Positions 38,581-56,848 of a DNA stretch of 64,000 nt are shown in pieces. A program made the position numbers and the translations under genes. Each line of letters opens with the position of its first letter. Within the stretch, counting starts at the first letter, position 1. The notes under the pieces are model-generated. The model did no database searches. It was not told the DNA's origin and saw only the letters and a program-made list of their open reading frames with translations. This DNA comes from Flagellimonas sp. CMM7 (GTDB taxonomy: Bacteria; Bacteroidota; Bacteroidia; Flavobacteriales; Flavobacteriaceae): contig NZ_CP090003.1 of assembly GCF_021390195.1 (NCBI RefSeq), positions 2,034,001 through 2,098,000 of the forward strand. Reading direction: 5' to 3'.

Positions 38581-38613
38581 GCTTCAAGGGGCTTAGACTT
38601 TTGGAGCTTTTTT
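38581..38613 (+). terminator. terminator downstream of tRNA-Ala
   Basis: GCTTCAA (38581-38587) pairs with TTGGAGC (38601-38607, one G-T pair), followed by a six-T run. It ends the tRNA transcript at the element boundary. Confidence 0.6.
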
Positions 38614-38615
38614 AT

Positions 38616-38637
38616 TTGCACTCAATTTGCACGCAAA
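38616..38637 (+). repeat. element 1 arm-type repeat, left
   Basis: A 22-base sequence made of two TTGCAC-N-CAA-like halves (TTGCACTCAA then TTTGCACGCAAA). It matches 43667-43688 with a single mismatch and in the same orientation. Placement just inside each att suggests integrase arm sites. Confidence 0.6.
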
Positions 38638-39128: not shown

Positions 39129-41654
39129 ATGTATAATTTGTTTATTGGGCATAAAAGAGACATAGTTATATTATTGTTTTTGATGTTGGTTGGATTGGTT
39201 TCCTATTCACAAACTTTTGATGACCATTGGTGGAACGGAAACGGATATCTAATGGATTTTCGGACGTCCCCGCCTACCATTACATGCACACTTCCTTCAG
39301 ACGGAGCTTTTGAGGCCACTTCCGTATGGTCGGACCCAGATTCAGGACAACTTGTTTTTTATGTTGACAATGGTGCGGTGCGTGATAGTAATGGCGTCTT
39401 ATATACGAACGGAAACACCATCAATACCAACGCCACGCGTACCCAAATGGCAACGGTTATGCCAGTGCCTGGTTCTAATTTTGACCAAGTATACATATTG
39501 CATGGAGATGGAAGGGATGAGGATAGACAAGGAACCGTTTACTTTTCCATTGTAGATATCCCTTCCAAAACGGTTGTTAGTAGTAATAACATTTTGAACA
39601 CCAGCACAACAGAGGCAGTTTCAGGGGTTGCAACTGGTAATGACTGTGGGGCTTGGATTGCCAGTATTTCCAATACTGTTGGATCGTGTGTAACAAATTG
39701 TGCTGCAACTTTGGGCCTATGGCTTGTAGACGATACAAACCCTCTCACCGTAGCAAGAACAAACAATCCAGACATTACAATTCCTTTACCTATAAATCTT
39801 CCCAGAAGAGGGGAACGTGCTACCATCAGATTCTCACAACAGAGCAATAGAATAGCCATAGCCATTGAAGGAGGCGGAAATACAATCAATGGAGGTATCT
39901 TTTATGCTAATTTCAATTCGGTAACCGGAGCTGTTGGTCCATGGACTAATGTTCCGAGAACAACCTCATTAAATACAGTTACTGGATATAGTGTAGAATT
40001 TTCACCTGACGGAAGCCGATTGTTCTACGCACATCAAAATTTTGTGGGGGTTAGAAATGATAATCAATCCATAGGGTGGTTCGATCCTTTATGGGTCCAC
40101 GTTATAGGAAGCAATTCTTCATCATTGGTAGATGCAACCGTTGCATACTCTGGAGTGCAATTGGGGCCAGATGGTTTTTTATATTACTCGCGCTCTGGGA
40201 GTACAACAATTCGCAGAATCACAAATCCCGATACCGTTACGGGAACTACTGATGTCGTTTTTGATAATTTAAGCTTAAGTTGCGGAGCGACCCAAGGATT
40301 TAATTTTTCGCAGCAGGTAGTCTTTTTTGACACCTGTGCGCCAGATACGGATGATGATGGATTTGATAACAATGACGATATTGATGATGATAATGATGGT
40401 ATAATCGACACCGTTGAAGGTACCTCGGACACTGATGGGGATTCTTTACCAGATTATCTGGATTTGGATTCAGATGGAGATGGAATACCGGATAATGTAG
40501 AGGCACAGGCCAGTACATCGTATGTAGCTCCTTCTAACATTGATAGCGATGGTAATGGATTGGATGATGCCTATGAGTCATCACCAGGTGCTGGGCAAGG
40601 CCTTAGCCCAGTAAACTCCGATGGAAGTGATGCTGTGGATTTTAAAGATACCGATAGTGATAATGCAGACGCTTTAGATACTGCAGAAGCAGGCCTTTCT
40701 TTATCTGGAAGCGATTCGGATGGCGATGGCTTGGATGACGCCGTGGATACTTCTTCCGATTATTCCGACCCTGGAGGGACGATAGACAACCCTATTGCAG
40801 GGCCTGTAATTTTAACAGATACCGATGGAGATGTTCTTACCGGAGGTGACTTGGATTTTAGGGATGTACTAGTATCCGCAGATCAGGATGGGGATGGTTT
40901 TACCAACGATGTGGATTTAGATGATGATAATGATGGTGTCTTGGATACGGATGAGTGCCCAACAAGCGCTGGAACCGTTGCTATAACGACCCCTGTTTTC
41001 AATATTCCTCAGACTGGAGGAACTTCTACGCAGACTGTAGATCTTTCTGCAACCGGAGTGCCTATAGGTGCTGCACTTACCATTTCCAATATTGTTGCCA
41101 CAGGAGATTTGAACGGAACCACTGAGAACTTTTCATTAAACATCAACTCGGGTGAATTTAATACCGGTAACGTACGTACTGGTGTACAATGCAGTGCAAC
41201 TCTCGACCCCCTACTTGCTCCTATTTCTACAACGATTACGGTAATTGATATTGGCGGCGGTGTCCCAGGGATTACTATTCTGGGGCAAACAACGGCAGGG
41301 GTAAATAATTTTGGCAGTTGTAATGGTGTTGATTATCAATTGGACATCAATGGAAGTTATTTTATTCCTTGTACACTAGATACGGATGGTGATGGTATTT
41401 TTAACGCTTTTGATGTTGATAGTGACGGTGATGGATGCCCGGATGCTATAGAAGCCTCTGGTAATTTTAGCAGTATACATTTGAATGCAAATAATCAATT
41501 GAGTGGAAGTGTGGATGCCAACGGTATTCCAAATGTTGTATCCCCTACAGGACAATCAATAACCGTTGCGGTTACGGACAATACAATCAGGTCTGGCTGC
41601 CCAAACACTGTTATAACCAATAGAAGAATTACATATCGGGTAAAACGAAATTAA
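39129..41654 (+). CDS. secreted thrombospondin type-3 repeat protein
   Basis: 841 residues with a signal sequence (about residues 14-30, ending GLVSYSQ). The N-terminal half (about 30-405) is a beta-rich, WD/propeller-like domain with repeated [12 protein letters not shown] turns. From about 405 there are calcium-binding TSP3 repeats of the DTDGDGI-x-D type ([32 protein letters not shown] and others). The C terminus ends [12 protein letters not shown], with no obvious standard type A T9SS signal. It is the only cargo gene of element 1, probably a surface adhesin or matrix protein. Confidence 0.85.
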
Positions 41655-42427
41655 GAAGAATTTTTCTTTCAAATGAAGAGATTAATTCAGAAAAACGATT
41701 CTTTTTTTACAAAACTTTATTCTTATATAATCAAGATGTTTACCCGATGTAAAACTAAATTCAAGATGTGTCTTTGTTACCACAAAAACATCTTGCTTTT
41801 GCGCCCAGAGGTTGCAAAAGAAAACTACGCATTAGGCGGTTGCTTAGAATAGTAAAATGAAAAAGCGAGTGAAACGAAGTTTCACGCTGCAAGCCCCCAA
41901 TCTTGCCAAAACAAACCTGCTGAGCGAGGCAAAGATTCCATTTCAAAGTAAAAATGGGTCAACTTTTCTGATGTTTAAAGGGCTTTCGAGAGGATTTGAC
42001 CCAATTCCCAAAAAATGACCAATGGAAAATGCTAGTTAGCCTATTCATTTGGGCTGACCAAAAGATGCCATTTCTCAGTTCATGACTTTTAGGTTTTTAC
42101 TGTAAACTTTTTCAGTGTTTTTAGGATATTCCAGAGTTTTTACAGTAAAAAATGGAAATTTCATTAAGAGAAGTAATCTGTAAAAAGTAGTGATTTTATT
42201 GGTCTTATGGCCGGAAATTGGATAACGTAGCACCGGCTTGCCGTGCTACCCTCTCGCTATACCCCCAACTCCCTTTCGGTCATTGTTCGGTACACCTTTG
42301 GCAAATCAAAAAGCAGAATGCGCCCTATCGTGTTTTTGTTTTACGCTTATCTATCTGAACACTATAAAAACCCGACAGGATCCATGCGCAAAGTTTAGAG
42401 GTAAGAAATGGGACAAGTAAAAACAAC
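41655..42427. other. gene-free stretch of element 1
   Basis: 773 bases without a supported gene. A 53-codon open frame (41857-42018) and a 13-bp perfect inverted repeat (42094-42106 with 42139-42151) are the only structures I see. The 41860-42230 part resembles, from memory, non-coding DNA near mobilisation genes of Bacteroidota conjugative elements, so it may be a leftover of a larger element. Confidence 0.5.
42094..42151. repeat. 13-bp inverted repeat with 32-base spacer
   Basis: TTTTTACTGTAAA (42094-42106) and its exact complement TTTACAGTAAAAA (42139-42151). It could be a terminator-like hairpin for the minus-strand integrase or a protein-binding site. Confidence 0.6.
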
Positions 42428-43645
42428 CTATAATTCAACAAGCTTTTTATTGTAATCATCTAAAATTTCGCTGGGCAATGATTTCAAATAAACTTGGGTC
42501 GTGGATAATCTATTGTGGCCAAGCATTGAGGAAATTGCCTGTAGCGGTACATCTTGCAACATAGCTTGGGTGGCAAAACTGTGACGGGATACATAAGATG
42601 TTAACCGTTTCTCTATATTACATTTGACCGCAATCTCTTTCAGTCCTTTGTTATATCTTTTTCTTGCCCATAAAACATCTTTGTACTGAAGTTCAAAAAT
42701 TCCTCTTTTGATTATGGGAAAGATAAAGTCAGATTTGTCCTTGTTGCTAAGATAAAATGAAAGTATTTCTTTTAGTTGAGGAGTAACACCTATATCATAA
42801 GGTTTAGAAGTTTTTCTTCTCTGGAACTTAAGACGATTATCAACAATATTTTGAACTTTCAGAAAAGCCAAATCCATAAATGAGATTCCATATAACATAT
42901 AAGAAGCCAGAAAATAGTTTCTATAGTGAAACAAGCTATCCGATTCTTTCAGCTTTAAAAGCATTATGGATTTAATACTATCAGCATCAAGAGCTCTTTT
43001 TTCTGTTGGAGTGGTTTTAATTCTGTAATGGGTAAAAGGATAAGCATCTCTAGTAACCACATCTGATTTAATGGCCTTATTGAAAATTGCCTTAATCGTC
43101 CTCATATAAGTGGAAAGAGCGTTTACGGAGTTTCCCCGTGAATAATGCCAATTCTCAAATCTTTTAAGAAAGTCATAATTGACTTCGTTGAACTTGATAT
43201 CATTCCCTTCAGTAAATTTTTCTAATACCTTGATTACCGCATAATAAGTATTTGCGTTTCCAAAACGTTCCGCCTTTTTTAAATCATCTATAATGTATTT
43301 GCCATATTCAATAAACGATTTAAAAGAGGAGGTTTTTACAATTTTATTTTTGAGTTGTAGAATTGATAAAAAGTCGAGTTCGTCCTTTTCATGTAGGTCA
43401 TTGATTATATCTACAGCCCTGGTTTTTTCTTTCAAAAGCAGATTATTCAATTTGCTAACTGACGAAGTGCCTTTGAAAGCTCTTTTTATTTTTTCGTTTT
43501 TAGCGTCCCAATATTCTTTGCTAACAGATTGCCCTAAACTTATCGAGGTGGTTTTACGAAAATGTGTCAATCGTAAAATGATAGGATAGGAAGCATCTTT
43601 TTTCTTCCTGCGGGTATCTAAAGAAAGTTTTATATTAGTATTCAT
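42428..43645 (-). CDS. tyrosine-type site-specific integrase
   Basis: About 405 residues from ATG 43645 (MNTNIKLSLDTRRKKKDASY). Order: N-terminal arm-binding domain, SAM-like core-binding domain (about 100-190), C-terminal catalytic domain with ALDADSIKSIMLLKL, the catalytic Arg-x-x-Arg region YVSRHSFATQAM (H-x-x-R) and the nucleophile in TQVYLKSLP. It should recombine the att copies of the tRNA-Ala 3' end. It is the only integrase seen in either element. Confidence 0.93.
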   Translation of the reverse strand: MNTNIKLSLDTRRKKKDASYPIILRLTHFRKTTSISLGQSVSKEYWDAKNEKIKRAFKGTSSVSKLNNLLLKEKTRAVDIINDLHEKDELDFLSILQLKNKIVKTSSFKSFIEYGKYIIDDLKKAERFGNANTYYAVIKVLEKFTEGNDIKFNEVNYDFLKRFENWHYSRGNSVNALSTYMRTIKAIFNKAIKSDVVTRDAYPFTHYRIKTTPTEKRALDADSIKSIMLLKLKESDSLFHYRNYFLASYMLYGISFMDLAFLKVQNIVDNRLKFQRRKTSKPYDIGVTPQLKEILSFYLSNKDKSDFIFPIIKRGIFELQYKDVLWARKRYNKGLKEIAVKCNIEKRLTSYVSRHSFATQAMLQDVPLQAISSMLGHNRLSTTQVYLKSLPSEILDDYNKKLVEL

Positions 43646-43666
43646 CTCAATCAAAGATAAAAAAAT

Positions 43667-43688
43667 TTGCACGCAATTTGCACGCAAA
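43667..43688 (+). repeat. element 1 arm-type repeat, right
   Basis: Partner of 38616-38637: the two halves read TTGCACGCAA and TTTGCACGCAAA, one mismatch from the left copy. It lies between the integrase start and att copy 2, where an integrase promoter and arm sites are expected. Confidence 0.6.
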
Positions 43689-43792
43689 TAGTTGGTTTCA
43701 TTTGATTTTAAATCACAACTAATTGAATTAAATAACTGAAAATAAATGAATTATGAAATAATATAAAGCTAGGAAATATATAAATCCTCTTT

Positions 43793-43835
43793 CTGGCAGG
43801 CAAGAGGTCACCGGTTCGAATCCGGTATTCTCCAC
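43793..43835 (+). repeat. att copy 2 (tRNA-Ala 3' end duplicate)
   Basis: 43 bases matching 38524-38566 except C-to-A in the T-loop. It lacks the terminal CA of CCA (TCCACTT). It is shared with the 60369 copy in TTCGAA form. It is the boundary between the two elements. Confidence 0.85.
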
Positions 43836-43846
43836 TTAATAAACAT

Positions 43847-43880
43847 AGGCCTTCACAGATGTGAGGGTCTTTTTGTTTTT
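43847..43880 (+). terminator. terminator after att copy 2
   Basis: The arms CCTTCACA and TGTGAGGG form a stem with a two-base loop, followed by TCTTTTTGTTTTT. It resembles the terminator after the tRNA, as if captured with the att site. Confidence 0.6.
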
Positions 43881-43885
43881 TCAGA

Positions 43886-43902
43886 ATGCACAGTTTATGC
43901 AC
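43886..43902 (+). repeat. element 2 arm-type repeat, left
   Basis: ATGCACAGTTTATGCAC, two TGCAC halves. Matched with two differences by 60236-60252 near the right end, in the same orientation. Confidence 0.55.
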
Positions 43903-44047
43903 ACTTTTGAAATTTTCTTTAAAATCAAGTAAAATTTAACATAAATAGAATTAAAATCGATCAAGCTGTTGTGTTTTTTATCTAATTTTTAGATGCTGCC
44001 AACTTCAACTTTTTAGCAAACAAAGTTATCCTATAATCTGTGTATAC

Positions 44048-44482
44048 TTAATTCCGAACACCATAAAAATAAAGAGAGTGCTCATCAATACTAACCCCAA
44101 AAGTCTCTTCAATGGTCTGTTTTATTTCTTGTATCCTAGGATCTGCAAATTCCAATATTTCACCTGTATCCGTCAAAATAATATGGTCATGCTTACCATC
44201 AAAAAAGGATTTTTCAAAATGGGCAACTTTATCCCCAAATTGATGTTTTCGAACCAAACGCGATTCCAATAAAATATCCATGGTATTATATAAGGTAGCT
44301 CGACTTACCCTATAATTTTTACTTTTCATTAAATCATACAAAGTATCTATGTTGAGATGCTCATCGGTATTATAAATTTCTTCTAGAATGGCATACCGTT
44401 CAGGTGTTTTACGGTGTCCGTTTTCTTCAAGAAAGGAAGTAAATATTCCTTTGATTATTTTAAAACTACTAACACAGGCCAT
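44048..44482 (-). CDS. Fur family transcriptional regulator
   Basis: 144 residues with the winged helix (about residues 1-80, [20 protein letters not shown]) and the Fur dimer domain. Metal-site residues such as His88, Glu90, His98 and His100 (KHDHIIL) are present. The usual CxxC of the structural zinc site reads TDTG here, and there is no C-terminal CxxC. It is the likely reader of the Fur-box-like dyads at 44552, 46931 and 52465. The metal or signal is not certain (iron, zinc or peroxide). Confidence 0.9.
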
Positions 44483-44551
44483 ACGAGATTTTTTAAGTAA
44501 ATGTTAAGCCAATTCGTTCTTTAGATTAACCATTGCAATATACTTATATTT

Positions 44552-44570
44552 ATTTAGATTTATTAAAAAT
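44552..44570. promoter_or_regulatory. Fur-box-like 19-bp dyad, site A
   Basis: ATTTAGATTTATTAAAAAT, a 9-1-9 dyad, between the divergent fur-type gene and the membrane-gene operon. Its complement, ATTTTTAATAAATCTAAAT, matches sites B and C. Confidence 0.65.
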
Positions 44571-44581
44571 AATATCTATGT

Positions 44582-44923
44582 TTGTTTTTTCAAATAAAGG
44601 TAATAGTGGGTATCGTTTTAATTTTTCTCGGTTGTTTTCTGCTTTATGCAAAGTCAAAACACTTTCCAGAACAACTAAATAGCATCAAGAAAAAAGCTAA
44701 TGAGAAGCCCTTGGCAGCAAGGCTTATTGCATATCTACTTTTCATCTCATCAGCAATTTTATTGTCGTTTCAATTGGGATTAGCAACTGGCCTGCTCACT
44801 TTTTTAATCACTTTGCTTTTGAGCCTGTGTCTTACCATTATGTTACTACCACTGCATAAGAAATATGCTTATTTCCTTGCCATACTAAGTTTAATCGTAA
44901 TAGTAATTGAAAATATTCTGTAA
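44582..44923 (+). CDS. DUF3325-like small membrane protein
   Basis: Up to 113 residues with three hydrophobic helices (about residues 6-24, 50-68, 71-89) and a loop around KSKHFPEQL. Size, helix layout and place directly before DUF3649-like and PepSY genes match the DUF3325 component of siderophore-uptake operons in proteobacteria. The start is not certain: TTG 44582 lies 12 bases from the Fur box; a GTG near 44606 is also possible. The next gene begins at once. Confidence 0.65.
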   Translation: MFFQIKVIVGIVLIFLGCFLLYAKSKHFPEQLNSIKKKANEKPLAARLIAYLLFISSAILLSFQLGLATGLLTFLITLLLSLCLTIMLLPLHKKYAYFLAILSLIVIVIENIL

Positions 44924-45205
44924 ATGCCTGCCAACCAAAAACACCTATCAAGTCCCGGCCAAAGAATTCTAAAAATTACCGCAGGCATTCTCGGGGGGTT
45001 CTTTGTAACCATCTTTTTTCATAATGCCCTTGGAAGTTTACTCGAACAAAAAGGTGCCCTGATTATTACCACTGCTTACACCTCCTTTTTTCTTTGGGCC
45101 GCATTGTTGGTCATAGCTTTTTTAGCTAAGAATGGCTGGAAAGTATGGGGAATATACCTCCTATTGACCTTAATCTTTGGTGCCATAATCTTTCTGAATA
45201 AATAA
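44924..45205 (+). CDS. DUF3649-like small membrane protein
   Basis: 93 residues with three helices (about residues 14-36, 45-64, 70-89). The RILKITAGILGGFFVTIFF start and the NGWKVWGIYLLL tail match the DUF3649 pattern seen next to PepSY proteins in siderophore loci. Family similarity is a judgement by eye. It starts immediately after the preceding stop and 8 bases before the PepSY gene. Confidence 0.65.
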   Translation: MPANQKHLSSPGQRILKITAGILGGFFVTIFFHNALGSLLEQKGALIITTAYTSFFLWAALLVIAFLAKNGWKVWGIYLLLTLIFGAIIFLNK

Positions 45206-45213
45206 AACCGACT

Positions 45214-46887
45214 ATGAAACTCAAGGCCCTCAAACCTAGATTATACAATGCAATGTTCCATACCCATACTGTATCGGGTATTGTAATCAGTTTTGCGCTA
45301 TTTGTATGCTTTTATGCTGGCGCAGTAGCTCTTTTCATGGATGAATTATATCAATGGGAGAATCCCGCAGCCCGAATAGAGCATGTTGATCCTGCTACAG
45401 TCGATTATGATAAGGTAATCAGCATAGTCAATGAAAACGCAGAAAATTTTGACAAAAGCCTGACTTTTGGTATTGCTCCTCCAACTGAGGCCAATCCATT
45501 GGTGACTTTATATGGAAGGGATAAAACGGAGGAAGGTAAGTTGACGTTCTTCACTGCCATACTTAATCCCAATACCTACGATGTAATATCCATCGGCGAT
45601 GAGCCTAGCACCCATATGGCACGGACCATTTATGAGCTGCACTATTTCCATCAGATTCCTGTGGTTGGACTTTATCTATCTGGATTTGTTGCTTTTTTCT
45701 TCTTGTTTGCGGTCATTACCGGAGTTTTGACACACTGGAAAAACATCGTTAATAAATTTTACGCCTTTACCACGAAAGGGAAATGGAAACAGATTTGGAC
45801 CAACGGACATATTTCACTAGGATTAATCACGTTGCCTTTTCAAGTAATTTATGCCGTAACCGGTGCATTGCTTGGGCTTTCTATATTGCTGTTGGCACCA
45901 AGTGCCATTTTGATGTACAATGGAGATACTACAGAGGTTGTTAAGGCAGCAAGACCAGATGCAGGAATAAAATATGATGAAAATGCAGAAGCGATTGACG
46001 ATGGCGTTACTTTCAACAGCATCTACGACAAAGTAAGTGCTGCTTACCCAGAAAACAACCTCACCTATATTTACGCAACAAATTATGGTAAAGAAGATGG
46101 CACAATAGGAGTACGTGTAAATGATTATAAGAGCATTGGAGGTGAGGGTATATTTGTATATGGCTATAATGATGGGCAATTAAAAGAGGCCATTGAACCT
46201 GAGACAAGATCATATGCTAAAGGGGCATATGGTGTGTTGATTAAACTTCATTATGCGACCTACGGAGGGATTTTCCTTAAAATAATCTACTTCCTTTTGG
46301 CAATGATTACCTGCTATATCATAATCAGTGGAATAATGATATGGCGCACTGCTCGGGATAAACCTAACTATACGGACAAGCAAAGAAGGTTTCACCATAG
46401 AGTTACTAAATTCTATTTGGCGATTACCCTTTCCATGTTCCCTGCCCTAGCGTTGATATTCATTGCCAATAAGCTAGTTCTGTTGGCAATGGAAGGAAGA
46501 GTACCCATTGTAAACTCAATTTTCTTTATTAGTTGGTTGATTCTTACAATCCTTGGGTTGTTTTGGAACGATTACCGCAAATTGAATAGAAACTATATCG
46601 TTCTTGGCAGTATTTTTGGGCTTCTTATTCCCATTGTCAATGGGGTAATCACAGGAGACTGGATATGGAACTCCCTTGTAAATAAACAGTACTATGTTTT
46701 CAGCGTGGACTTCACTTGGTTGATTATCGGAGTATCTGGATTATTGATTAACCGATATTATTTGAACCGTCCTTCAAAAGTTGACAAAGCGGAAATCGTC
46801 GAAAGGGAAATTATAGATGTACAAGCCCGTAAGTTAGCAAAAGAAAAGCCTGCACCAGTACTACAAAACGCCATTAAGTCTAAGTAG
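45214..46887 (+). CDS. PepSY-associated inner-membrane protein (XusC-like)
   Basis: 557 residues with at least six membrane helices: a first helix (about residues 19-40), a large periplasmic domain of PepSY type, YLSGFVAFFFLFAVITGVLT, a further helix pair, and four helices at the end. Conserved histidines are seen in HTHTVSGI, YELHYFHQIP and IKLHYATYGG, typical of iron-siderophore reductase-like PepSY proteins. It is the likely inner-membrane partner of the receptor and lipoprotein that follow, as XusC is in Bacteroides. Confidence 0.88.
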   Translation: MKLKALKPRLYNAMFHTHTVSGIVISFALFVCFYAGAVALFMDELYQWENPAARIEHVDPATVDYDKVISIVNENAENFDKSLTFGIAPPTEANPLVTLYGRDKTEEGKLTFFTAILNPNTYDVISIGDEPSTHMARTIYELHYFHQIPVVGLYLSGFVAFFFLFAVITGVLTHWKNIVNKFYAFTTKGKWKQIWTNGHISLGLITLPFQVIYAVTGALLGLSILLLAPSAILMYNGDTTEVVKAARPDAGIKYDENAEAIDDGVTFNSIYDKVSAAYPENNLTYIYATNYGKEDGTIGVRVNDYKSIGGEGIFVYGYNDGQLKEAIEPETRSYAKGAYGVLIKLHYATYGGIFLKIIYFLLAMITCYIIISGIMIWRTARDKPNYTDKQRRFHHRVTKFYLAITLSMFPALALIFIANKLVLLAMEGRVPIVNSIFFISWLILTILGLFWNDYRKLNRNYIVLGSIFGLLIPIVNGVITGDWIWNSLVNKQYYVFSVDFTWLIIGVSGLLINRYYLNRPSKVDKAEIVEREIIDVQARKLAKEKPAPVLQNAIKSK

Positions 46888-46930
46888 AGAATCCCCAATT
46901 AAGTATAATCATGACTTCATCAAATACTTT

Positions 46931-46949
46931 ATTTATAATAAGTCTAAAT
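46931..46949. promoter_or_regulatory. Fur-box-like 19-bp dyad, site B
   Basis: ATTTATAATAAGTCTAAAT, 51 bases before the start of the first TonB-dependent receptor. It is nearly identical to site C and the complement of site A. Confidence 0.7.
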
Positions 46950-46999
46950 AAAAATAAAGCATTAGATTTGCTCACCTAAAAAGTAGAACCAACCATAAA

Positions 47000-49369
47000 A
47001 TGAAGAAAATACTATTTTTCTTATTGCTGATTCCAACAGCAATCTTAGCCCAAAACAGATACAATATTTCTGGAATCGTAAAAAGCGAAAATGGGGAGCC
47101 TCTAGCTTATGCCACCATAAATCTTGACAGAAACAATAAATACGCCGTTGCTAATGAAAATGGTATCTACCAAATCAAAAACGTCCGTAGCGGAGACTAC
47201 ACAATTACCGTAAGTTCTATTGGTTTTGCCACCAAAACCCAAGCTATTTCTGTAAATGGTGATTTAACATTGGATTTTACCCTAATAGAAGATGTTCAAG
47301 CCTTGGACGATGTCATTGTCGAGGGTAAAAAATCTTCCACCAAACAGGAAGAAAGGGCTATCACCATTGGTAGTTTTGAATTGGCCGATGTGGTTTCACA
47401 AACTAATATTCTAGCCGATGCCGTGGACAAAATTGCAGGTGTTCGTATCCGTCGTTCTGGTTCTTTGGGAGACGGTGCCGACGTTTCCATCAATGGACTA
47501 AATGGAACGGCTGTGAGGACATTTGTTGACGGAGTACCCATAGAGTTTTTGTTTCCAGGAACCGATATTGCCACATTGCCATTAACGGGAATACGACGAG
47601 TGGATGTTTTCAAGGGTGTACTTCCTGTGGACATTTCTTCGGATGCCCTCGGAGGTGGAATCAATATCATTACAGAAGAAAATACGGTAAATAGGCTACG
47701 AGCATCGTACAGTGCTGGCTCATTCAACACCCACCTTGGAGATTTTAGCGTAACCTTAACTGATGGCAAAGAGAGTTTTGTAAAAGTTACTGCCGGAGCC
47801 AATTATTCTGACAATGACTATACCTTCAAAGCTCCCATTCGTGTATTGAATCCAGATAACGGGCAACCTGTGGATTTAGAAGAACCTTTGAACATAAGAC
47901 GGTTCCACGATCTCTATCGCTTACAGTATAGTACCGCCACATTGGGTACGTATAACAAAAAATGGACGGATCACGCTGAGATTGCCTTCAACTACTTTGA
48001 TACTTTCCGTGAATTTCAGAATAATGTTAGCCCTATTTCCAATGTCGCCATAGGTGAAGCAATAGGTGAACGTGAAAATGTAGCCATAGTTGCCAAGTAT
48101 GATAAAACGTTGATTAAGGATAAATTGAAATTGAAGACCATATCCAACTACAGTGACCTATTTACAAAGTTTGTGGATACCACATCAAACACCTACAACT
48201 GGTTAGGAGATATCATCGATACCAATGGGCGAAGAGGGGAATTTGAAGACGGAAGCCCCGCACTCACAGAAACTACCACAAAAAGCCTTGTAAATCGATT
48301 GACCTTGAACCTTCAAGTGTCTGAAAACAGCAATTTGATCTTTAGCAATCTTTTGGCACATCAAGACCAAGAACTCAAAGACTTCGATATTGATGACCCC
48401 ACACAATTTGGAGTAGCCCCAGAACAGAAAATCACCAAGAATATTTCGGGCTTGCAATATGATAATACCTTATTCAATGAAAACCTTGAATTTTCCGCAG
48501 CCTTAAAATACTATACCTATAAATTGGTTGGTTTTAGTAATCTCAATAGGGTTGCTATTGAAAGTACAGAAGGGTTTTTGGGTTGGAATGGTAGTATTCA
48601 ATACAAGCTCACCGATGTATTTTCGGTAAGAGGTTCTTATGAACGTGGCTTTTTAATTCCTGAGATTGTACAGTTTGCTGGTGATGGATTGAATGTGGCT
48701 CCCAATGGAGAACTACAACCAGAGGAAAGTGACAATTTTAATCTTGGGTTTCGATACAATAAGCGTTATAACGAGAATTATCGATTAGGGTTAACAGCGA
48801 ACGGATTCCTAAGAAAGCAACGGAACTTCATCTTTATTGATGCCAATGCCGCAAGACAACAGAACGCAAACATAGGCGACATAGATTCACAAGGTTTTGA
48901 AACGGAATTACAGTTCAATTTCCTTAAAAACTTCAATTGGAACACCAATGTCAGTTTCGTTGACAAAACCATAGAACGATTTGCAGTCGATACGGCAACA
49001 GATGACTCTGTGGGTTCTCAATTGCCAAATACACCCCGGTTCTTCTACAACACAGAACTATCGTGGCAAACGGAGGATATCTTCAATTCAGGTGTAGATG
49101 TTCGGCTTTATGGATTGTACACCCATGTGGATGTATTCAATATTCGCCCTGTTTCTGACGGCGAAACCTTAGAAACTACACCAGACGCCTTTGTCCCTGA
49201 GCAAGACCGATTTGATGCCGGCGTTTCCCTGAGTTTCCTCGACAAAAAAATTACAGCTGCATTCAATGTGGTCAACATCACAGATGAAGACTTATTCGAC
49301 AATTTTAGCATTCCGAGACCGGGGCGCAACTTCAACTTTAAACTGATTTATGAGATTTCCAATTTTTAA
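47000..49369 (+). CDS. TonB-dependent receptor 1 (XusA-like)
   Basis: 789 residues. Signal peptide (residues 1-17, TAILAQ), CarboxypepD_reg-like domain (about 20-105), plug (about 110-220, with DKIAGVRIRRSGSLGDGADV and VFKGVLPVDISSDALGGGIN) and a 22-strand barrel ending in an aromatic residue (YEISNF). There is no SusC-style TonB box or neighbouring SusD, so this is a siderophore- or metal-type receptor. It is preceded by site B and followed at once by the DUF4374-type lipoprotein. Confidence 0.95.
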   Translation: MKKILFFLLLIPTAILAQNRYNISGIVKSENGEPLAYATINLDRNNKYAVANENGIYQIKNVRSGDYTITVSSIGFATKTQAISVNGDLTLDFTLIEDVQALDDVIVEGKKSSTKQEERAITIGSFELADVVSQTNILADAVDKIAGVRIRRSGSLGDGADVSINGLNGTAVRTFVDGVPIEFLFPGTDIATLPLTGIRRVDVFKGVLPVDISSDALGGGINIITEENTVNRLRASYSAGSFNTHLGDFSVTLTDGKESFVKVTAGANYSDNDYTFKAPIRVLNPDNGQPVDLEEPLNIRRFHDLYRLQYSTATLGTYNKKWTDHAEIAFNYFDTFREFQNNVSPISNVAIGEAIGERENVAIVAKYDKTLIKDKLKLKTISNYSDLFTKFVDTTSNTYNWLGDIIDTNGRRGEFEDGSPALTETTTKSLVNRLTLNLQVSENSNLIFSNLLAHQDQELKDFDIDDPTQFGVAPEQKITKNISGLQYDNTLFNENLEFSAALKYYTYKLVGFSNLNRVAIESTEGFLGWNGSIQYKLTDVFSVRGSYERGFLIPEIVQFAGDGLNVAPNGELQPEESDNFNLGFRYNKRYNENYRLGLTANGFLRKQRNFIFIDANAARQQNANIGDIDSQGFETELQFNFLKNFNWNTNVSFVDKTIERFAVDTATDDSVGSQLPNTPRFFYNTELSWQTEDIFNSGVDVRLYGLYTHVDVFNIRPVSDGETLETTPDAFVPEQDRFDAGVSLSFLDKKITAAFNVVNITDEDLFDNFSIPRPGRNFNFKLIYEISNF

Positions 49370-49373
49370 TGAT

Positions 49374-50744
49374 ATGAAAACGAATTTTAAACATTTTTTT
49401 GGCCTTTTGACGATTGCACTTTTGATTTTGTCCTGTGAACCTGAAGAGGTGGTAACCCAAGTAGTTGTTGAAACGGTTGCAGGAGCAGAACAGACCATTG
49501 CAGATTTACCCTATGCCAAAAGTGGTTTTGTGGCCTCCTCAATCTTAAGTACACCCACATCCTTTTCATATTTCACGGATTATTCTTCGGATTTACCCTC
49601 AGGAGCTATCGATTTGACTACGAATACTTCCAGCTCCTTTAGTCGTTATTTTCCGAATACCATTTATAAATTTCTCGCTTTTGGACCTTCTTTGGACACC
49701 GAAAATCTAGAATTGAACAGGTATGCCGTTGATGAAGAAACCAATAAGATAGTAAGAGCTGGAGCCATTCCCTTAAGCGCAAATCTTAGCCAGGTCTTGA
49801 TTCTAAGTGATGATCTAGGGGTATATACCATATTTGACACCCAAAGTCTTTTCCTTTTCAATCCTACGACTATGCAGTTTATACAAGAAATACAAATGCC
49901 TGAGGCCTTTGCCCCCAAAGACCTAGGAGATAGTCAGGCGAATTCGTATTTCCACATCATTCATAGACCACAGGACAATAGAGTATTCCTTCCTTTGACC
50001 TCTAATTCACCTGTGACGCCCCAATTTTACGAGGGCACTGATATATTTGTTGAGGTGGTGAATCTCAACACCCTTTCTTGGGAAAAAACAGCGGTATTCA
50101 ATGGAGCGACATATCCTTTGACTCGCGGAATGGAAAATCCGCTTGTTGATGAACAAGGCAATATTTTCTTGCTTACACAAGGACAATACAGTCTTGACTT
50201 TCAATTTGGCCCAACGGCTCCACCCAGTTCAAGACCTCAATTTTTAAAGATTCCTGCCGGAAGTACCGATTTTGATACAGATTATGCTTTTAATCCAGTA
50301 GACGCTTTAGGGTTTCAAAACTCAGTGGCCCAACTCTGTACAGGTTCTATTTATGATGCTAACGGTATCGCATATGCTGCAATGACTGCTGAAGCAGATG
50401 TTCCCAGGGTAAATGAACTTTTAGGCTTACTTGCTACAGGAATGATAACTGATGCACAGTTCAATGAGTTGGTTGGTTTGGTTACCAACAGCCCAAATAT
50501 GAAATGGACCAGAATTGATTTGAATGCGCAAACTGCTGAGACCATTGCGGATATTACTTCCACAGCAGGCTTTACGTATCCTTTTTCATACAAGGCAAAT
50601 GGAAAGTTCTATTTTCAAGTTTTTAATCCTACACAAGCAGTAAATGGATATTATGAATTTGACCCAGCTACAAATAGTAGTAGTAACATCTATAATGTAT
50701 CAGCTGGTGGTGTGACCACACACCTATTTATATTACAAGAATAA
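49374..50744 (+). CDS. DUF4374-type surface lipoprotein (XusB-like)
   Basis: 456 residues from ATG 49374, the start that gives a signal peptide with lipobox LILSC. The mature protein is a repetitive beta sequence of about seven blades, for example VLILSDDLGVYTIFD, FHIIHRPQDNRVFLPL and KWTRIDLNAQTAETIADI. This matches the beta-propeller DUF4374 family. XusB, the family's best-known member, binds siderophores and passes them to XusA. The gene starts 5 bases after the receptor stop. Confidence 0.8.
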   Translation: MKTNFKHFFGLLTIALLILSCEPEEVVTQVVVETVAGAEQTIADLPYAKSGFVASSILSTPTSFSYFTDYSSDLPSGAIDLTTNTSSSFSRYFPNTIYKFLAFGPSLDTENLELNRYAVDEETNKIVRAGAIPLSANLSQVLILSDDLGVYTIFDTQSLFLFNPTTMQFIQEIQMPEAFAPKDLGDSQANSYFHIIHRPQDNRVFLPLTSNSPVTPQFYEGTDIFVEVVNLNTLSWEKTAVFNGATYPLTRGMENPLVDEQGNIFLLTQGQYSLDFQFGPTAPPSSRPQFLKIPAGSTDFDTDYAFNPVDALGFQNSVAQLCTGSIYDANGIAYAAMTAEADVPRVNELLGLLATGMITDAQFNELVGLVTNSPNMKWTRIDLNAQTAETIADITSTAGFTYPFSYKANGKFYFQVFNPTQAVNGYYEFDPATNSSSNIYNVSAGGVTTHLFILQE

Positions 50745-50776
50745 GAGTTTAGTTTTAGGAGTTAGTCTAGCTTACC

Positions 50777-50810
50777 AAGCCCCAATCGTTAAATTGGATT
50801 GGGGCTTTTT
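50777..50810. terminator. bidirectional terminator
   Basis: AAGCCCCAATC (50777-50787) pairs exactly with GATTGGGGCTT (50797-50807), followed by T residues in one direction and preceded by A-rich DNA in the other. It separates the convergent lipoprotein and phosphatase genes. Confidence 0.85.
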
Positions 50811-51390
50811 ATTTAAACTTCAAAAGCCCCAATTTTTCCTTTACCCCTTCTTTATCAAGATTTGAAATGAGGTCAATAACATTAGGATACCAATTTTCAT
50901 GATACCTAAGTTCAGGGCGCCGTAACTCAGAAATGGCATCTTCTTTTGACCAATTTTCAAAAACCACACGATATGCGGCCATTATGGCTCCTGTTCTATC
51001 TGAGCCATGCCAACAATGTACCAGCACAGGCTTTTCTGCTGAGTTTATAGCCCTCAATGATGTTATCAAATCAGCCTCGGTAAGTTCAGAAGTCTTTAAA
51101 GGAATGTGCGTCAATTGTAGCCCGGAGCCCTTTGCTTTCTTGGAGTCATCTTTGTTTCTACGGAAGGTTATGGCTGTTTTTACACCAAGAGATTCCAATT
51201 TCCTAAAACCCTTTTTGCTAGGTTGTTCTGAGCGGAACACCGAATCATTAAGGGCATACAATCTTTTGAAATGTTTCGATTGTATTTTATGTAACTTAAA
51301 ATCTTGGGCTTTGTCTTGACCAAAGCTTACTGGGCGCGCAAGAATCAAGGTGATAATACAGACTATTATTAAGTTACTTTTGATATACAT
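50809..51390 (-). CDS. exported tyrosine/dual-specificity phosphatase-like protein
   Basis: 193 residues with a signal sequence (residues 1-24, ending ARPVSFG). The catalytic P-loop VHCWHGSDRTG has the Cys and Arg of protein tyrosine phosphatases, and the fold resembles Siw14/DSP-like enzymes. The substrate is unknown: inositol phosphates or phosphoproteins are family possibilities. It is oriented toward the terminator and just downstream of the AraC gene. Confidence 0.88.
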   Translation of the reverse strand: MYIKSNLIIVCIITLILARPVSFGQDKAQDFKLHKIQSKHFKRLYALNDSVFRSEQPSKKGFRKLESLGVKTAITFRRNKDDSKKAKGSGLQLTHIPLKTSELTEADLITSLRAINSAEKPVLVHCWHGSDRTGAIMAAYRVVFENWSKEDAISELRRPELRYHENWYPNVIDLISNLDKEGVKEKLGLLKFK

Positions 51391-51396
51391 CAGGTA

Positions 51397-52377
51397 TTAG
51401 CTTTTTATGGAACTTGGCACAACACCGAATTGCTTTTTAAAAGCGGAGCTAAAATGTTGTGGATTTTTATAACCAACCATTTCAGAAATTTCAGTTACGG
51501 ATAAATTGTTGTGCAACAACAGGTTTTTAGCTTTTTGCATTTTAGCATCACGGATATAACCAAATACTGTCTTACCATAAATATTTTTGAACTCTTTTTT
51601 AAGTGTACACTCATTAGTACTTACCATTCTAGCCAGATCAGGTAGACTAATAGGGTCGTTTAATTTTCCAATGATAATATCACGGGCCAAATGCATTTTA
51701 TCAATCATTGTTCTGGATGTATCAGAATTTGAGAAACAATATTCACATTGTTGCATTTGATCTAACTGTAAAAGCAAAAGTTCCATCACCTTGGATTCCA
51801 AAAAAAGCCTACGATATTCATTTTTCCAATGACAGTTGATAATATCATTGATGATTTGGAACATTTGGGGTGTTATGGGGTGGTTATGAGAACTTATGGT
51901 TCCTAGTTCTTTATTTTGTATTAATTTTTTGAAAAAATCAAATTGCCCATTGGTAGGAAGGTATTGCTCAAAGAATACTGGTTTTAGATTGATTTCTAAG
52001 AAGAACATTTCCTTTGAATTCCATTCAATTTTACCACGAAAATCGTTCCCGTAAAATATGTTATGACTGTTTGGACCAATCAAAAAACCTCCATCTAAAG
52101 TATCCATTGATGTAGAAGAGTTTCCCTTAATGGCAAAGTGCATCTCTACCGTTTCTTCGTCAAACTCAAAAAAAATTGTGGTCTTCTCCGCAAAACGTCC
52201 ACTTCCATAACTAATTTTAAAATTGTCAAGCGCTATTTCCTTGTACCAACCATTGAACTTTTCATAGTCGAACGTGAACTTAAACTCACTAGTACCGGCA
52301 TTGTCTATATGGTATTGTTGCTGGCCAGTCTCAAAAATAATTTCCTCTAAGTCCTTTAAGTATAATTTCACCCCCAT
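51397..52377 (-). CDS. AraC family regulator (PchR-like)
   Basis: 326 residues. N-terminal ligand domain of about 210 residues with a Cys-rich segment (QMQQCEYCFS), then the AraC DNA-binding domain (ISLPDLARMVSTNECTLKKE and VTEISEMVGYKNPQHFSSAF). PchR-type regulators of siderophore receptors have this layout and respond to ferri-siderophore. It is divergent from receptor 2. Direct repeats of 21-bp period lie at its own start. Confidence 0.9.
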   Translation of the reverse strand: MGVKLYLKDLEEIIFETGQQQYHIDNAGTSEFKFTFDYEKFNGWYKEIALDNFKISYGSGRFAEKTTIFFEFDEETVEMHFAIKGNSSTSMDTLDGGFLIGPNSHNIFYGNDFRGKIEWNSKEMFFLEINLKPVFFEQYLPTNGQFDFFKKLIQNKELGTISSHNHPITPQMFQIINDIINCHWKNEYRRLFLESKVMELLLLQLDQMQQCEYCFSNSDTSRTMIDKMHLARDIIIGKLNDPISLPDLARMVSTNECTLKKEFKNIYGKTVFGYIRDAKMQKAKNLLLHNNLSVTEISEMVGYKNPQHFSSAFKKQFGVVPSSIKS

Positions 52378-52380
52378 TAT

Positions 52381-52418
52381 TATTCCGTTTTACGTAGGTT
52401 TTATTCCGTTTCGCGTAG
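52381..52418. promoter_or_regulatory. AraC-type operator: two direct repeats, 21-bp period
   Basis: TATTCCGTTTTACGTAG (52381-52397) and TATTCCGTTTCGCGTAG (52402-52418) differ at two bases. The 21-bp period is two helical turns, the classical arrangement of AraC half-sites. They abut the AraC start codon at 52377 and lie about 90 bp before receptor 2. Confidence 0.7.
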
Positions 52419-52464
52419 TCACTATTTACAAGCGCAAAAGTATTTTTACGCTTTAAATTTAGTT

Positions 52465-52483
52465 ATTTATAATTAATCTAAAT
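52465..52483. promoter_or_regulatory. Fur-box-like 19-bp dyad, site C
   Basis: ATTTATAATTAATCTAAAT, 24 bases before the start of TonB receptor 2. It is the closest to a perfect dyad of the three sites. Confidence 0.7.
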
Positions 52484-52506
52484 AATAACAGCCAACTTAA
52501 ATACGC

Positions 52507-54870
52507 ATGAATTTCAAGAATCTAGCACTTCTTTTCTTTACTCTTTTATCATTTGCAGGGATTGCCCAAGAAAATAGACTTACAGGAACAATTTCAGATA
52601 CCGATGGAAATCCCGTTCAAGGAGCCAACATTCGCTTGTTGGAAACAACAAAAGGGGCCTCAACGGACAATCAAGGTAAATATGCAATCGAAGGTGTCGT
52701 TTCAAAAACGTATTTTATCGAGATTAGTTACCTGGGATACCAAACTCTTGTCAATCAGATAAATGTATCTCAAAATGCACAATCTTCTTATGATTTTGTT
52801 CTGGTGGCATCCTCTAACCAGTTAGACGAGGTGGTGGTTTCTGCTGCAAATAGACGTTTGCAGAATATTCAAAAGACAGAGGCTTCAATATCGGCGATAG
52901 GGACTAAGGGCATAGAACAGTTACAAGTAAAGGAATTTGGTGAATTAAGTAGTATAGCCCCAAATTTTAACACTTATGATGATGGTGGTCCTGGTATTTT
53001 CACCATTGTAGCCAGTAGGGGGATTTCCACTATTGATGTAAATCCTACAATGGGAGTCTATGTGGATGATGTACCCTATTTTTCCACTTTAGCCTATCCG
53101 CTGGCTTTGGCGGATGTAGAGCAGATAGAAGTACTTAGAGGACCACAAGGAACACTTTATGGAAGAAATGCTTTGGCAGGGGTTCTTAAAATTACCACGA
53201 AGCGGCCTACTAATGAACTGTCAGGTTATGCTACGGTTGGTTATGGGAATTTAAACGCTAAAGAACTGTCCTTTGCCCTTAATGCCCCATTAGTAGAAAA
53301 TAAATTATTCTTTAGAACAAGTGCCAAGGTTGCAGAGCGTGATGGGTTCGTTACCAATGAGTTTAACAACAAAGACCTACAAAATAGAAAAGCGTTAAAC
53401 GCAAATTTCCGGCTAAAATATTTTGCCAATGATAATTTATCCATGGCGCTCCGTTATAATATTCAACGAAGAGAATCCAATGCGTATGCCTTTGCCTTGG
53501 CAACCCCAGATAATTCATTACAAGACATTCTGGAAAACAGTCTCTATAAATTGAATTTTGATGTAGATATTTTTCAGGAGGTGCTTACACAAGACGTTGC
53601 ATTCACCCTAAAATATGATTTTGAAAAGTTTACTCTTAATTCAATTACCTCCTATCAAATTACTCAACAAGAATCTTTGGATGAATTTGATTATATGCCA
53701 TTTGATATACAATCAGCCCGTAGGCCTAATAGTATTTATGAGAACTTCGCGCAAGAACTGCGGCTAAGTTCTTCTTCGGATGCAAGCCTACAATGGACAG
53801 CTGGTGTTTTTCTTTATCAAAATAAAGAAGAACGAGAAGATATTCGCAGATTTGGAAATGATATTGGCTTAGCTGCTCCTGATTTTGCACCCCTTGCACC
53901 TTTTAACCAAATTGAATTGCCTATTGCGGACAGAAAGGGAATCGCAGTGTTTGGTCAAGCCACATATGGCATCTCCGATAAGCTTTCAATCACTGGGGGT
54001 ATGCGTGCCGACTATGAAGAAGTTGAAGCCAGTGTAGTACGTACTTTTTCAAATCCGGTATTACCAGGGAACAGTTTTAGTGATGACGCAACTTTTGATG
54101 CGCTTTCTCCAAAAGTGGCTTTAGGATATGATGTAAATGACAATGTCTTCTTATTTGCCAATTATGCAAAGGGTTTTAGGCCAGGAGGTATTAATACTTT
54201 CGTTACAGACCCCGATGCTGCACCTTTTGAACCCGAAAAATCATCTAATTACGAAGCGGGTGTAAAAACCAATCTTCTGAACAACAGATTAAAGTTGAAC
54301 CTAACAGGGTTCTTTATAAATTACAAAGACCAACAGGTATTTACGGTACTAGATTTAACCAGTTTTATAATTGGTACGGACAATATAGGTGAATCCAAAA
54401 GCTACGGACTAGAATTGGAAAGTAAGTGGGTCGCTGCCAAAGGACTCGATTTCACACTTAACCTTGGTTATCTAAATACTGAAATAACAAAGTACAATCC
54501 AATAGACTTCAACACCGGTGAAGAATTGGACCTTTCAGGGAACAGCCTTCCACTAGCCGCAGAGTTTAATGGTAATATGAACATTAACTATAAATTACCC
54601 TTGAACAAAAAGTTCAATTTAGAAACCAGTCTTGATTACAATTATCAATCAGATTTCTTTTTTTCAGTAGATAATGATACCACACAAGATGGGTATGGTC
54701 TGTTAAATGGAAGAATAGGGTTCACATCTAAGAATTTAGACCTTTTCGTATGGGGAAAGAACATTACTGACGAAGCTTATTATAGCTATGGTTATGGCGT
54801 AGGTGGCTTTAACGCGGCTTCCTTTGGGCTGCCTCAAACATATGGTGTTACACTCACTGGTAAGTTTTAA
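52507..54870 (+). CDS. TonB-dependent receptor 2
   Basis: 787 residues. Signal peptide (ending FAGIAQ), CarboxypepD_reg-like domain (about 22-105), plug (about 115-220, with VLRGPQGTLYGRNALAGVLK, a classic receptor signature) and a barrel ending TYGVTLTGKF. The LRGPQGTLYGRN motif is typical of ferrisiderophore and related receptors. Controlled, by inference, by site C and the AraC operator. It begins an operon with four further genes. Confidence 0.95.
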   Translation: MNFKNLALLFFTLLSFAGIAQENRLTGTISDTDGNPVQGANIRLLETTKGASTDNQGKYAIEGVVSKTYFIEISYLGYQTLVNQINVSQNAQSSYDFVLVASSNQLDEVVVSAANRRLQNIQKTEASISAIGTKGIEQLQVKEFGELSSIAPNFNTYDDGGPGIFTIVASRGISTIDVNPTMGVYVDDVPYFSTLAYPLALADVEQIEVLRGPQGTLYGRNALAGVLKITTKRPTNELSGYATVGYGNLNAKELSFALNAPLVENKLFFRTSAKVAERDGFVTNEFNNKDLQNRKALNANFRLKYFANDNLSMALRYNIQRRESNAYAFALATPDNSLQDILENSLYKLNFDVDIFQEVLTQDVAFTLKYDFEKFTLNSITSYQITQQESLDEFDYMPFDIQSARRPNSIYENFAQELRLSSSSDASLQWTAGVFLYQNKEEREDIRRFGNDIGLAAPDFAPLAPFNQIELPIADRKGIAVFGQATYGISDKLSITGGMRADYEEVEASVVRTFSNPVLPGNSFSDDATFDALSPKVALGYDVNDNVFLFANYAKGFRPGGINTFVTDPDAAPFEPEKSSNYEAGVKTNLLNNRLKLNLTGFFINYKDQQVFTVLDLTSFIIGTDNIGESKSYGLELESKWVAAKGLDFTLNLGYLNTEITKYNPIDFNTGEELDLSGNSLPLAAEFNGNMNINYKLPLNKKFNLETSLDYNYQSDFFFSVDNDTTQDGYGLLNGRIGFTSKNLDLFVWGKNITDEAYYSYGYGVGGFNAASFGLPQTYGVTLTGKF

Positions 54871-54875
54871 ATAAT

Positions 54876-55292
54876 ATGAAAATAGTTGTTTATATCATCC
54901 GATTTTTATTGGCTTTGATGTTCATCTATGCAGGAGTGGAAAAATTGTTTATGCCTTATGACCAATCAGTTTTCCGAGCTGATACGGCAGAGGCAGCCGA
55001 AGAATTCTTTATGTTTTATGAATTTCTGCAGGCATCGGGATATCTGTATTTCGTAGGCTTTTTTCAATTGCTATGTGGAGCATTATTGGTATTTAAGCGC
55101 ACTTATTTACTGGGAAGTGTCATGTTGGTTCCGTTGATACTTTGCCTATTAATGACGCATGTTTTCTTTTCAAAATATATGCAGTTCATCATTTTCGACC
55201 TGGTATTCTTTCTGTTGAATTTAGTAGTGCTTTTTAGTAGGTATAAAGAATGGCAACCTGTATTGCTTAAAAAACAAAAAGGGATAATTTGA
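54876..55292 (+). CDS. DoxX-like membrane protein
   Basis: 138 residues with four membrane helices (about residues 5-21, 52-70, 78-97, 103-122). The RFLLALMFIYAGVEKLFMP start is DoxX-typical. It begins 6 bases after receptor 2, a close coupling. Function is unproven. Confidence 0.85.
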   Translation: MKIVVYIIRFLLALMFIYAGVEKLFMPYDQSVFRADTAEAAEEFFMFYEFLQASGYLYFVGFFQLLCGALLVFKRTYLLGSVMLVPLILCLLMTHVFFSKYMQFIIFDLVFFLLNLVVLFSRYKEWQPVLLKKQKGII

Positions 55293-55302
55293 AAGTACGA
55301 GA

Positions 55303-55977
55303 ATGAAAAAGAACATTGCCATATTCGAAGGAAACAGAGCCAATAACTACGATGATTTTGCAGTAAAGTGGATTCCCAACTACGATTATTATATCGATAT
55401 GTTGCCAAAGCTGCTGAACCACACAGACGAAAAGAACGCCCTGATAGTGGGCTGTGGCACGGGCAATGAGATGAAAGCCTTGGCCGAATCTTCAGAGGAC
55501 TGGTCGCTCACCGGTGTAGATCCTTCCCCGGAAATGATTGCCTTGGCCAAGGAAAAATTAAGAGCTTTCAGTACTATCGAATTGTTTACGGGCAAGCTCG
55601 AACACTTTAAGAACACTACTTTTTTCAATGCAGCAACGCTATCTCTCGTCTTACACTTTATAAAATATCCGAAGGATAAATTGGCATTGTTACAGCAAGT
55701 CGAAAAACGTTTGAAACCCGGCTCTCCATTCATAATTATGGGGATTTTTGGGAATGGCGAACAGTTGAGAACCAATTTGGAAGTACTCGAACTTTTATTG
55801 GAAAACACAGTAGCCCAAAAGGAAATCGATGAACGTTTCACAAGGATAAAAAAAGAATTACATCGCACAAGTGAAGAAGAATTAAAGAAGTTATTGGTTC
55901 GTGCTGGCTTTAAGCCACCGACCCGTTTTTTCCAAACCTCTATTTACAGTGCTTGGATAACTCATAAAATTGATTGA
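55303..55977 (+). CDS. class I SAM-dependent methyltransferase
   Basis: 224 residues. SAM motif I is ALIVGCGTGNEMKAL (about residues 47-61), motif II LTGVDPSPEMIALAKEKL, motif IV FFNAATLSLVLHFI. It is a Rossmann-type small-molecule methyltransferase by layout. No substrate clue is seen except its place inside a metallophore receptor operon. It overlaps no neighbour and is followed 1 base later by the ABC ATPase. Confidence 0.88.
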   Translation: MKKNIAIFEGNRANNYDDFAVKWIPNYDYYIDMLPKLLNHTDEKNALIVGCGTGNEMKALAESSEDWSLTGVDPSPEMIALAKEKLRAFSTIELFTGKLEHFKNTTFFNAATLSLVLHFIKYPKDKLALLQQVEKRLKPGSPFIIMGIFGNGEQLRTNLEVLELLLENTVAQKEIDERFTRIKKELHRTSEEELKKLLVRAGFKPPTRFFQTSIYSAWITHKID

Positions 55978-55978
55978 A

Positions 55979-56848
55979 ATGAAACTAGAAATCAACAACT
56001 TATCAAAAACCTATTCGAATGGTGTACAGGCCCTGAAAAATGTTTCTTTAACCATTGAAAAAGGGATGTTTGGACTTTTAGGACAAAATGGGGCAGGTAA
56101 GTCTACCTTAATGCGAACCATAGCCACTTTACAAGATCCGGATACCGGGGAAATTGATTTCAATGGCATCAATGTGCTAAAGAACCCCGAAGCATTGAGA
56201 AAAACCTTGGGGTATCTCCCCCAAGAGTTTGGAGTATATCCCAATGTAACCGCAGAAGAATTACTCACACATATTGCGGACATGAAGGGCATTGTGCATA
56301 AAGGGGAACGAAAAGATACCGTAGCCGCCCTCTTGCAAAAAGTAAACCTTTACGATGTTCGGACGAAGAAACTGGATGGCTATTCAGGAGGCATGAAACA
56401 GCGTTTTGGAATTGCTCAGGCTTTATTAGGCAATCCCCAGCTCATCATAGTGGACGAACCTACTGCAGGGCTAGACCCCATGGAACGAAACCGCTTCTAT
56501 AATTTACTTTCGGAATTGGGAGAAAATGCAGTGGTTATACTATCTACCCATATTGTGGAAGATGTGAGTACACTCTGTACGGATATGGCCATTATTGGTA
56601 ATGGTAAAGTAGTGCTTACAGGTAAACCTGATGAAGTTCAAGAAGTGATGCGTGACAAGTTATATGAAGTACCCATTCATAAAGAACAATTAACGGAATA
56701 TCAGGAGAAGTACAATGTCATATCGCAACGTTTCTTTTCCGGTAAATTGATGATAACCGTTTTAGCCGACGAATTGCCTGCTGGTGAATTTGATGCCAAA
56801 TCCCCTTCATTGGAAGATGCCTACTTTAAAATTTTAAGCGAGAGTTAG
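55979..56848 (+). CDS. ABC-2-type transporter ATP-binding protein
   Basis: 289 residues from ATG 55979; a TTG at 55970 would overlap the methyltransferase. Walker A is GQNGAGKST (about residues 35-43), the signature YSGGMKQR, Walker B LIIVDEPTAGLDP, H-loop LSTHIVEDV. It matches exporters of the CcmA/ABC-2 class. It energises the giant permease encoded 1 base downstream. Confidence 0.93.
   Translation: MKLEINNLSKTYSNGVQALKNVSLTIEKGMFGLLGQNGAGKSTLMRTIATLQDPDTGEIDFNGINVLKNPEALRKTLGYLPQEFGVYPNVTAEELLTHIADMKGIVHKGERKDTVAALLQKVNLYDVRTKKLDGYSGGMKQRFGIAQALLGNPQLIIVDEPTAGLDPMERNRFYNLLSELGENAVVILSTHIVEDVSTLCTDMAIIGNGKVVLTGKPDEVQEVMRDKLYEVPIHKEQLTEYQEKYNVISQRFFSGKLMITVLADELPAGEFDAKSPSLEDAYFKILSES

Follow-up and report, generated by a model that had tools for sequence, protein, structure and literature searches.

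The Xus proteins have been characterised from gut Bacteroidota (Bacteroides, Barnesiella). In the accessible parts of the published accounts, on which all our literature statements rest, the hookless XusB of B. fragilis (BfXusB) binds ferrichrome (PMC13142918), and iron scarcity raises the xus genes of B. theta by 489- to 676-fold (PMC10434189). The hiuABC genes of Caulobacter are Fur-regulated in a host that is not known to make siderophores, and the same gene order is reported in Bacteroidota too (PMC12424826); Maribacter polysiphoniae, a member of the Flavobacteriaceae, grows on a neighbour's siderophore, as cited in PMC11183961. A literature search joining xenosiderophores, Flavobacteri-, horizontal gene transfer and islands found no paper. 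Here we describe a Xus-type locus in a 64-kb window (the whole stretch analysed) of Flagellimonas sp. CMM7, which is a portion of a single 4.42-Mb contig. The locus encodes a TonB-dependent receptor, a propeller lipoprotein and a PepSY protein, and lies on an island that we call element A. We give a probability of roughly 0.8 to the reading that it is a mobile XusAB-PepSY iron-piracy locus, through which element A gives its host access to the siderophores of other organisms. This reading is carried by computed homologies, conservation of the operon, a shared palindrome, the failure to find siderophore synthesis genes of the two kinds searched, the island ends and a cargo that recurs almost unchanged at a different tRNA gene of a second species.

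Components of the locus

The initial annotation, made from the sequence alone, named a set of five genes, and all five are present on one strand in the order given there:

44606-44923, plus strand: small inner-membrane protein, DUF3325-like (Pfam, sub-threshold; a relative in locus L001 is above the cut-off)
44924-45205, plus strand: 93-amino-acid (aa) membrane protein of a conserved family (gene neighbourhoods, homologue searches)
45214-46887, plus strand: PepSY_TM inner-membrane protein in the XusC position, presumed ferri-siderophore reductase (Pfam)
47000-49369, plus strand: TonB-dependent receptor, XusA homologue (PDB 9gbc_A)
49374-50744, plus strand: XusB-like propeller lipoprotein (profile and fold; start and lipobox read from the sequence)

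Kinship with the Xus proteins differs from one component to the next. The receptor, with its TonB barrel, Plug and CarbopepD_reg_2 domains (Pfam), matches PDB 9gbc_A over residues 22-782 of 789 (E 8e-77), so that its relation to XusA is strong by sequence; an MxcH-like label from NCBIfam was rejected, its 308 bits being far below the cut-off of 925. The lipoprotein has the lipobox ...LILSC, followed by EPEE, as read from the sequence. The DUF4374 family proposed for it was not matched directly (PF14298.12, no match at E ≤ 1), and the silence of the same search over its own genome is uninformative, as the control genomes were likewise silent. Nonetheless, PF14298.12 matches 2 of 36 aligned relatives (window protein included; best 2e-5), and the newer PF14298.14 is a precomputed annotation on 75 of 77 homologues. 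Searches of the PDB with the lone sequence and with a distant relative found nothing. Since the direct DUF4374 match is absent in the window protein, the DUF4374/XusB link stands on profile and fold, and both bear it out: the fold nearest to the lipoprotein model is that of BfXusB, and the model has two helices, at residues 347-357 and 363-375, in a stretch left unaligned by the BfXusB profile match. As lack of the hook is read as a sign of hydroxamate preference, the lipoprotein may, by analogy with that protein, prefer hydroxamates. Its closest relative, 95% identical, is annotated as Flagellimonas (Allomuricauda) eckloniae. Import of some other scarce ligand by the receptor and the lipoprotein, e.g. 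a cobamide (BtuBG-like) or heme, seems improbable to us.

For the inner-membrane proteins the family assignments are broader. The PepSY protein matches PepSY_TM (PF03929, 8.4e-51), which upholds kinship with XusC at the level of the PepSY family only. Of the DUF3325/DUF3649-like pair claimed for the small genes, the first half survives in weakened form, with DUF3325 scoring 23.6 bits against a cut-off of 26.8; among seven relatives of this protein, one lies above the cut-off, four below it and two have no match. The second half was rejected: the 93-aa protein has no Pfam match, and 18 scanned members of its family, which numbers at least 1053 relatives, gave no convincing one. In UniRef, a few of these relatives are called 'DUF3649 domain-containing' or 'Iron transporter'.

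The two small genes and the PepSY gene are separated by at most 8 bp (44606-46887), a gap of 112 bp precedes the receptor gene, and the lipoprotein ATG lies 4 bp past the receptor stop. The first gene had been started at TTG 44582. Because that codon overlaps TATGTTTG (44577-44584), we have moved the start to the in-frame GTG 44606, where the gene probably begins; TATGTTTG itself matches the consensus of the -7 promoter element in Bacteroidota and presumably acts as one.

The arrangement is conserved. In a sample of 17 contig loci, which overlaps the genus genome set (L002 appears to be the G061 locus), the receptor adjoins the lipoprotein in all 17, the PepSY and the 93-aa genes are each nearby in 16, and a DUF3325-like gene in nine (E ≤ 1e-3); depending on the locus, the inner-membrane genes run collinearly with the receptor gene or diverge from it. 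Within the genus the lipoprotein occurs in 5/71 genomes, the window genome counted, and each of the other four has all five genes. Among 397 family genomes, at least 36 have lipoprotein profile matches at E ≤ 1e-3, many of them weak, and at least four (own genome included) have matches below 1e-40; these counts are lower bounds, since in each genome a part of the candidates was scored. At G039:C1:1040833-1042196 the lipoprotein match is interrupted, its two parts lying in different open frames, which may reflect either decay of the copy or an error in the sequence.

An island at tRNA-Ala and its near-copy in another species

The surroundings of the locus are marked by three copies of a tRNA-Ala 3' end:

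38492-38568, plus strand: tRNA-Ala (ggc), the integration target, its 3' end repeated twice downstream (ARAGORN; repeat searches)
38569-43835, no strand: tandem element B, which encodes an integrase and an 841-aa protein; the xus cargo is not part of it (direct repeat)
42428-43687, minus strand: tyrosine recombinase of element B (Pfam Phage_int_SAM_5, Phage_integrase)
43793-43835, plus strand: second copy of the tRNA-Ala 3' end, right end of B and left end of A (repeat search)
43836-60405, no strand: element A, the iron-piracy island (flanking tRNA-Ala 3'-end copies; near-identity to genome G013)
60370-60405, plus strand: third copy of the tRNA-Ala 3' end, right end of A (repeat search)

The first two copies form a 43-nt direct repeat of 98% identity (38524-38566 and 43793-43835), and from the three copies it follows that two elements stand in tandem: the integrase belongs to B, the xus cargo to A. 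The mobile island of the initial annotation can thus be retained as element A, without the integrase next door: a tRNA repeat lies between that gene and the xus genes, so it belongs to element B, and no integrase was found among the scanned open reading frames of element A. The third repeat rules against a placement of the locus outside any island. The 841-aa protein of element B (39129-41654) has aspartate-rich DxDxDG repeats, as read from the sequence, and no Pfam match at E ≤ 0.01.

The content of element A (44048-60117) recurs in G013, a genome of another species, in three long pieces of 93-97% identity and an overlapping 221-bp piece of 92%, whereas the core flank common to both genomes is 78-79% identical, a figure resting on ~9 kb only. 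Such incongruent identities point to recent transfer. In G013 a tRNA-Asn 3' end, repeated perfectly over 44 bp, bounds the cargo, so that tRNA 3'-end direct repeats are found at both ends in both genomes, and at the end of the G013 cargo lies an integrase that shares 55% identity with the element B enzyme. An extra imperfect 27-nt match to the tRNA-Asn end lies ~2.2 kb outside; the tRNA-Ala repeat has one exact copy in G013, and two 3-mismatch copies elsewhere in the genome. In G064, whose flanks are ~90% identical to the window, the interval between tRNA-Ala and the ribonucleotide reductase genes holds a different ~9.6 kb, including genes for a TonB receptor and a SusD-like protein, and the lipoprotein has no match in that genome. 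Because G064 carries other genes there, the interval looks like a hotspot with changing cargo.

It might be argued that the genus inherited the cluster from its common ancestor and often lost it, the tRNA repeats marking element B only. Sporadic presence by itself does fit loss as well as gain, and the core comparison is short; the third repeat at 60370-60405, the identity contrast between cargo and flank, the use of another tRNA site in G013 and the other genes in the G064 interval all speak against such a history, and we consider it highly improbable. By the same observations, horizontal acquisition of the locus, also proposed in the initial annotation, is well supported.

Two further observations concern these regions. 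In G064 the left end of the tRNA-Ala to ribonucleotide reductase interval (L097, G064:C2:574000-590000) resembles that of element A (70% over 247 bp). Of the ribonucleotide reductase genes to the right of the island (60628-63693), the small subunit occurs in 27 of 40 genus genomes and was not found in G013 at E ≤ 1e-50.

Regulation

Upstream of the small-gene operon, the receptor and a second receptor on the island, a Fur-box-like palindrome, ATTTAGANTNATTNNAAATAA, is found without mismatch, and a Fur gene, which we add to the earlier description of the locus, lies divergently beside it:

44048-44482, minus strand: accessory Fur-family regulator (Pfam FUR, 5.8e-27)
44552-44572, plus strand: palindrome 1 (pattern search), just before TATGTTTG
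46929-46949, minus strand: palindrome 2 (pattern search), inside the gap between the PepSY gene and the receptor
52463-52483, minus strand: palindrome 3 (pattern search)

With at most one mismatch, ATTTAGANTNATTNNAAATAA is present in 18 of 20 upstream segments from the window and related loci, where first-order simulations predict 0.0; the two exceptions are the receptor segments of L003 and L004. As the pattern was derived from most of these same segments, and window and G013 are near-copies, the independent evidence for it is its other genome sites. At the same stringency there are 13 matches in the genome, as against 0 in a reversed control; five are perfect, three of these being the island sites, and two matches overlap at one site. 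Sites lie directly upstream of feoA-feoB, in duplicate ahead of a DUF4856 lipoprotein-imelysin operon, again in duplicate at the beginning of a TonB receptor gene, and between hemA and a gene reading as AraC-type; less clear are those before nqrA, between a DUF6686 gene and a guaB-like reading, and behind a ferritin gene. The palindrome, a putative Fur operator, thus recurs at iron genes elsewhere in the genome, which supports iron repression of the locus only indirectly.

A Fur match was present in 70 of 70 genus genomes searched, and the window genome has two, the other, at 3.33 Mb, being 67% identical to the island Fur. G013, G060 and G045 carry copies of the island Fur (73-95% identity), and in the Cellulophaga locus L003 the gene immediately after the lipoprotein encodes a Fur of 80% identity. 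In G060 the copy adjoins AraC and second-receptor genes on a contig other than the xus contig, and in G045 it is present where the lipoprotein has no match; the association of Fur with xus is thus frequent, not fixed.

Second module and siderophore synthesis

The right part of element A holds further genes:

50809-51390, minus strand: DSP/PTP-like phosphatase with an N-terminal signal-like stretch (Pfam)
51397-52377, minus strand: AraC-type regulator (Pfam)
52507-54870, plus strand: second TonB receptor, FyuA-related (PDB 4epa)
54876-60119, plus strand: DoxX-like protein, methyltransferase, ABC ATPase and 1089-aa membrane protein (open reading frames, Pfam)

The second receptor matches PDB 4epa (FyuA) at E 1.8e-46, the next structure at 2.1e-10, and the AraC, receptor, DoxX, methyltransferase and ABC genes adjoin xus in G061 too. 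The AraC and FyuA-like receptor module would probably take a second siderophore class. In the phosphatase region G013 is ~425 bp longer, which breaks the match to the gene. The 1089-aa protein (56850-60119) has a weak match to ABC2_membrane_4 (ABC-2) alone; we take its C-terminal half to resemble an aminopeptidase.

The piracy reading had also leaned on the absence of siderophore synthesis genes. Neither IucA/IucC (PF04183) nor the condensation domain of nonribosomal peptide synthetases (NRPS; PF00668) was found in the whole genome, with control matches in 2 and 4 of 14 genomes, respectively; the search covered these two kinds. The host might accordingly make a siderophore by a route independent of NRPS and of the IucA/IucC type (NIS), and reclaim its own product through the locus. 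Genes for a methyltransferase and for an ABC ATPase plus its membrane partner do lie on the island; no synthesis genes were recognised there, and a lipoprotein in so few genus genomes is expected of an accessory uptake trait. We judge this possibility quite unlikely, and piracy of foreign siderophores, as originally proposed, is supported.

In the piracy scheme, low iron would cause Fur (core, the island's own, or both) to release the three island promoters. The surface lipoprotein would capture a ferri-siderophore, which the XusA-like receptor would move across the outer membrane with TonB energy; the PepSY protein, aided by the two small membrane proteins, may then reduce the iron in the periplasm, and Fe2+ would enter through FeoAB.

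A mobile Xus system of Flavobacteriaceae that brings along an iron regulator would illustrate how bacteria making no siderophores reach those of producers, and for testing, element A offers a cargo with defined limits, three promoters and two sites of insertion. A wider proposal, to which we give slightly less than an even chance, is that element A is a portable iron-piracy cassette which combines two receptor systems, one for each of two siderophore classes, with Fur and AraC regulators of its own, and which exchangeable integrase modules carry between Flagellimonas-like species into different tRNA genes. If so, iron theft itself would be a transmissible trait in marine Bacteroidota.

Comparison with known systems

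Like XusABC of Bacteroides (PMC13142918), the locus combines a receptor with an N-terminal carboxypeptidase-like domain, an adjacent propeller lipoprotein and a PepSY protein. It differs from the system described there in the two extra small membrane genes ahead of the PepSY gene, in the separate palindromes of the inner- and outer-membrane genes, in the two helices of the lipoprotein model, in its location on a tRNA island that also carries a second receptor and a Fur paralogue, and in a host that is non-gut, judged by the names of its relatives. With hiuABC of Caulobacter (PMC12424826) it shares a TonB receptor, a PepSY reductase-like protein and a small membrane protein, and it adds a surface lipoprotein, none being named for hiuABC in the accessible text. 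The second receptor has its best solved relative in FyuA, the pesticin/yersiniabactin receptor, and here stands beside an AraC gene, in a genome without a detected NRPS condensation domain, unlike the FyuA setting. Finally, element A resembles the RUSTI iron islands of cheese bacteria (PMC5526665) in its iron-uptake cargo, its AraC regulator and its nature as an integrative element at a tRNA gene (the Actinobacterial form); RUSTI, as far as the accessible account goes, carries ABC-type siderophore transport genes with no Xus genes named, whereas element A carries a Xus-type set.
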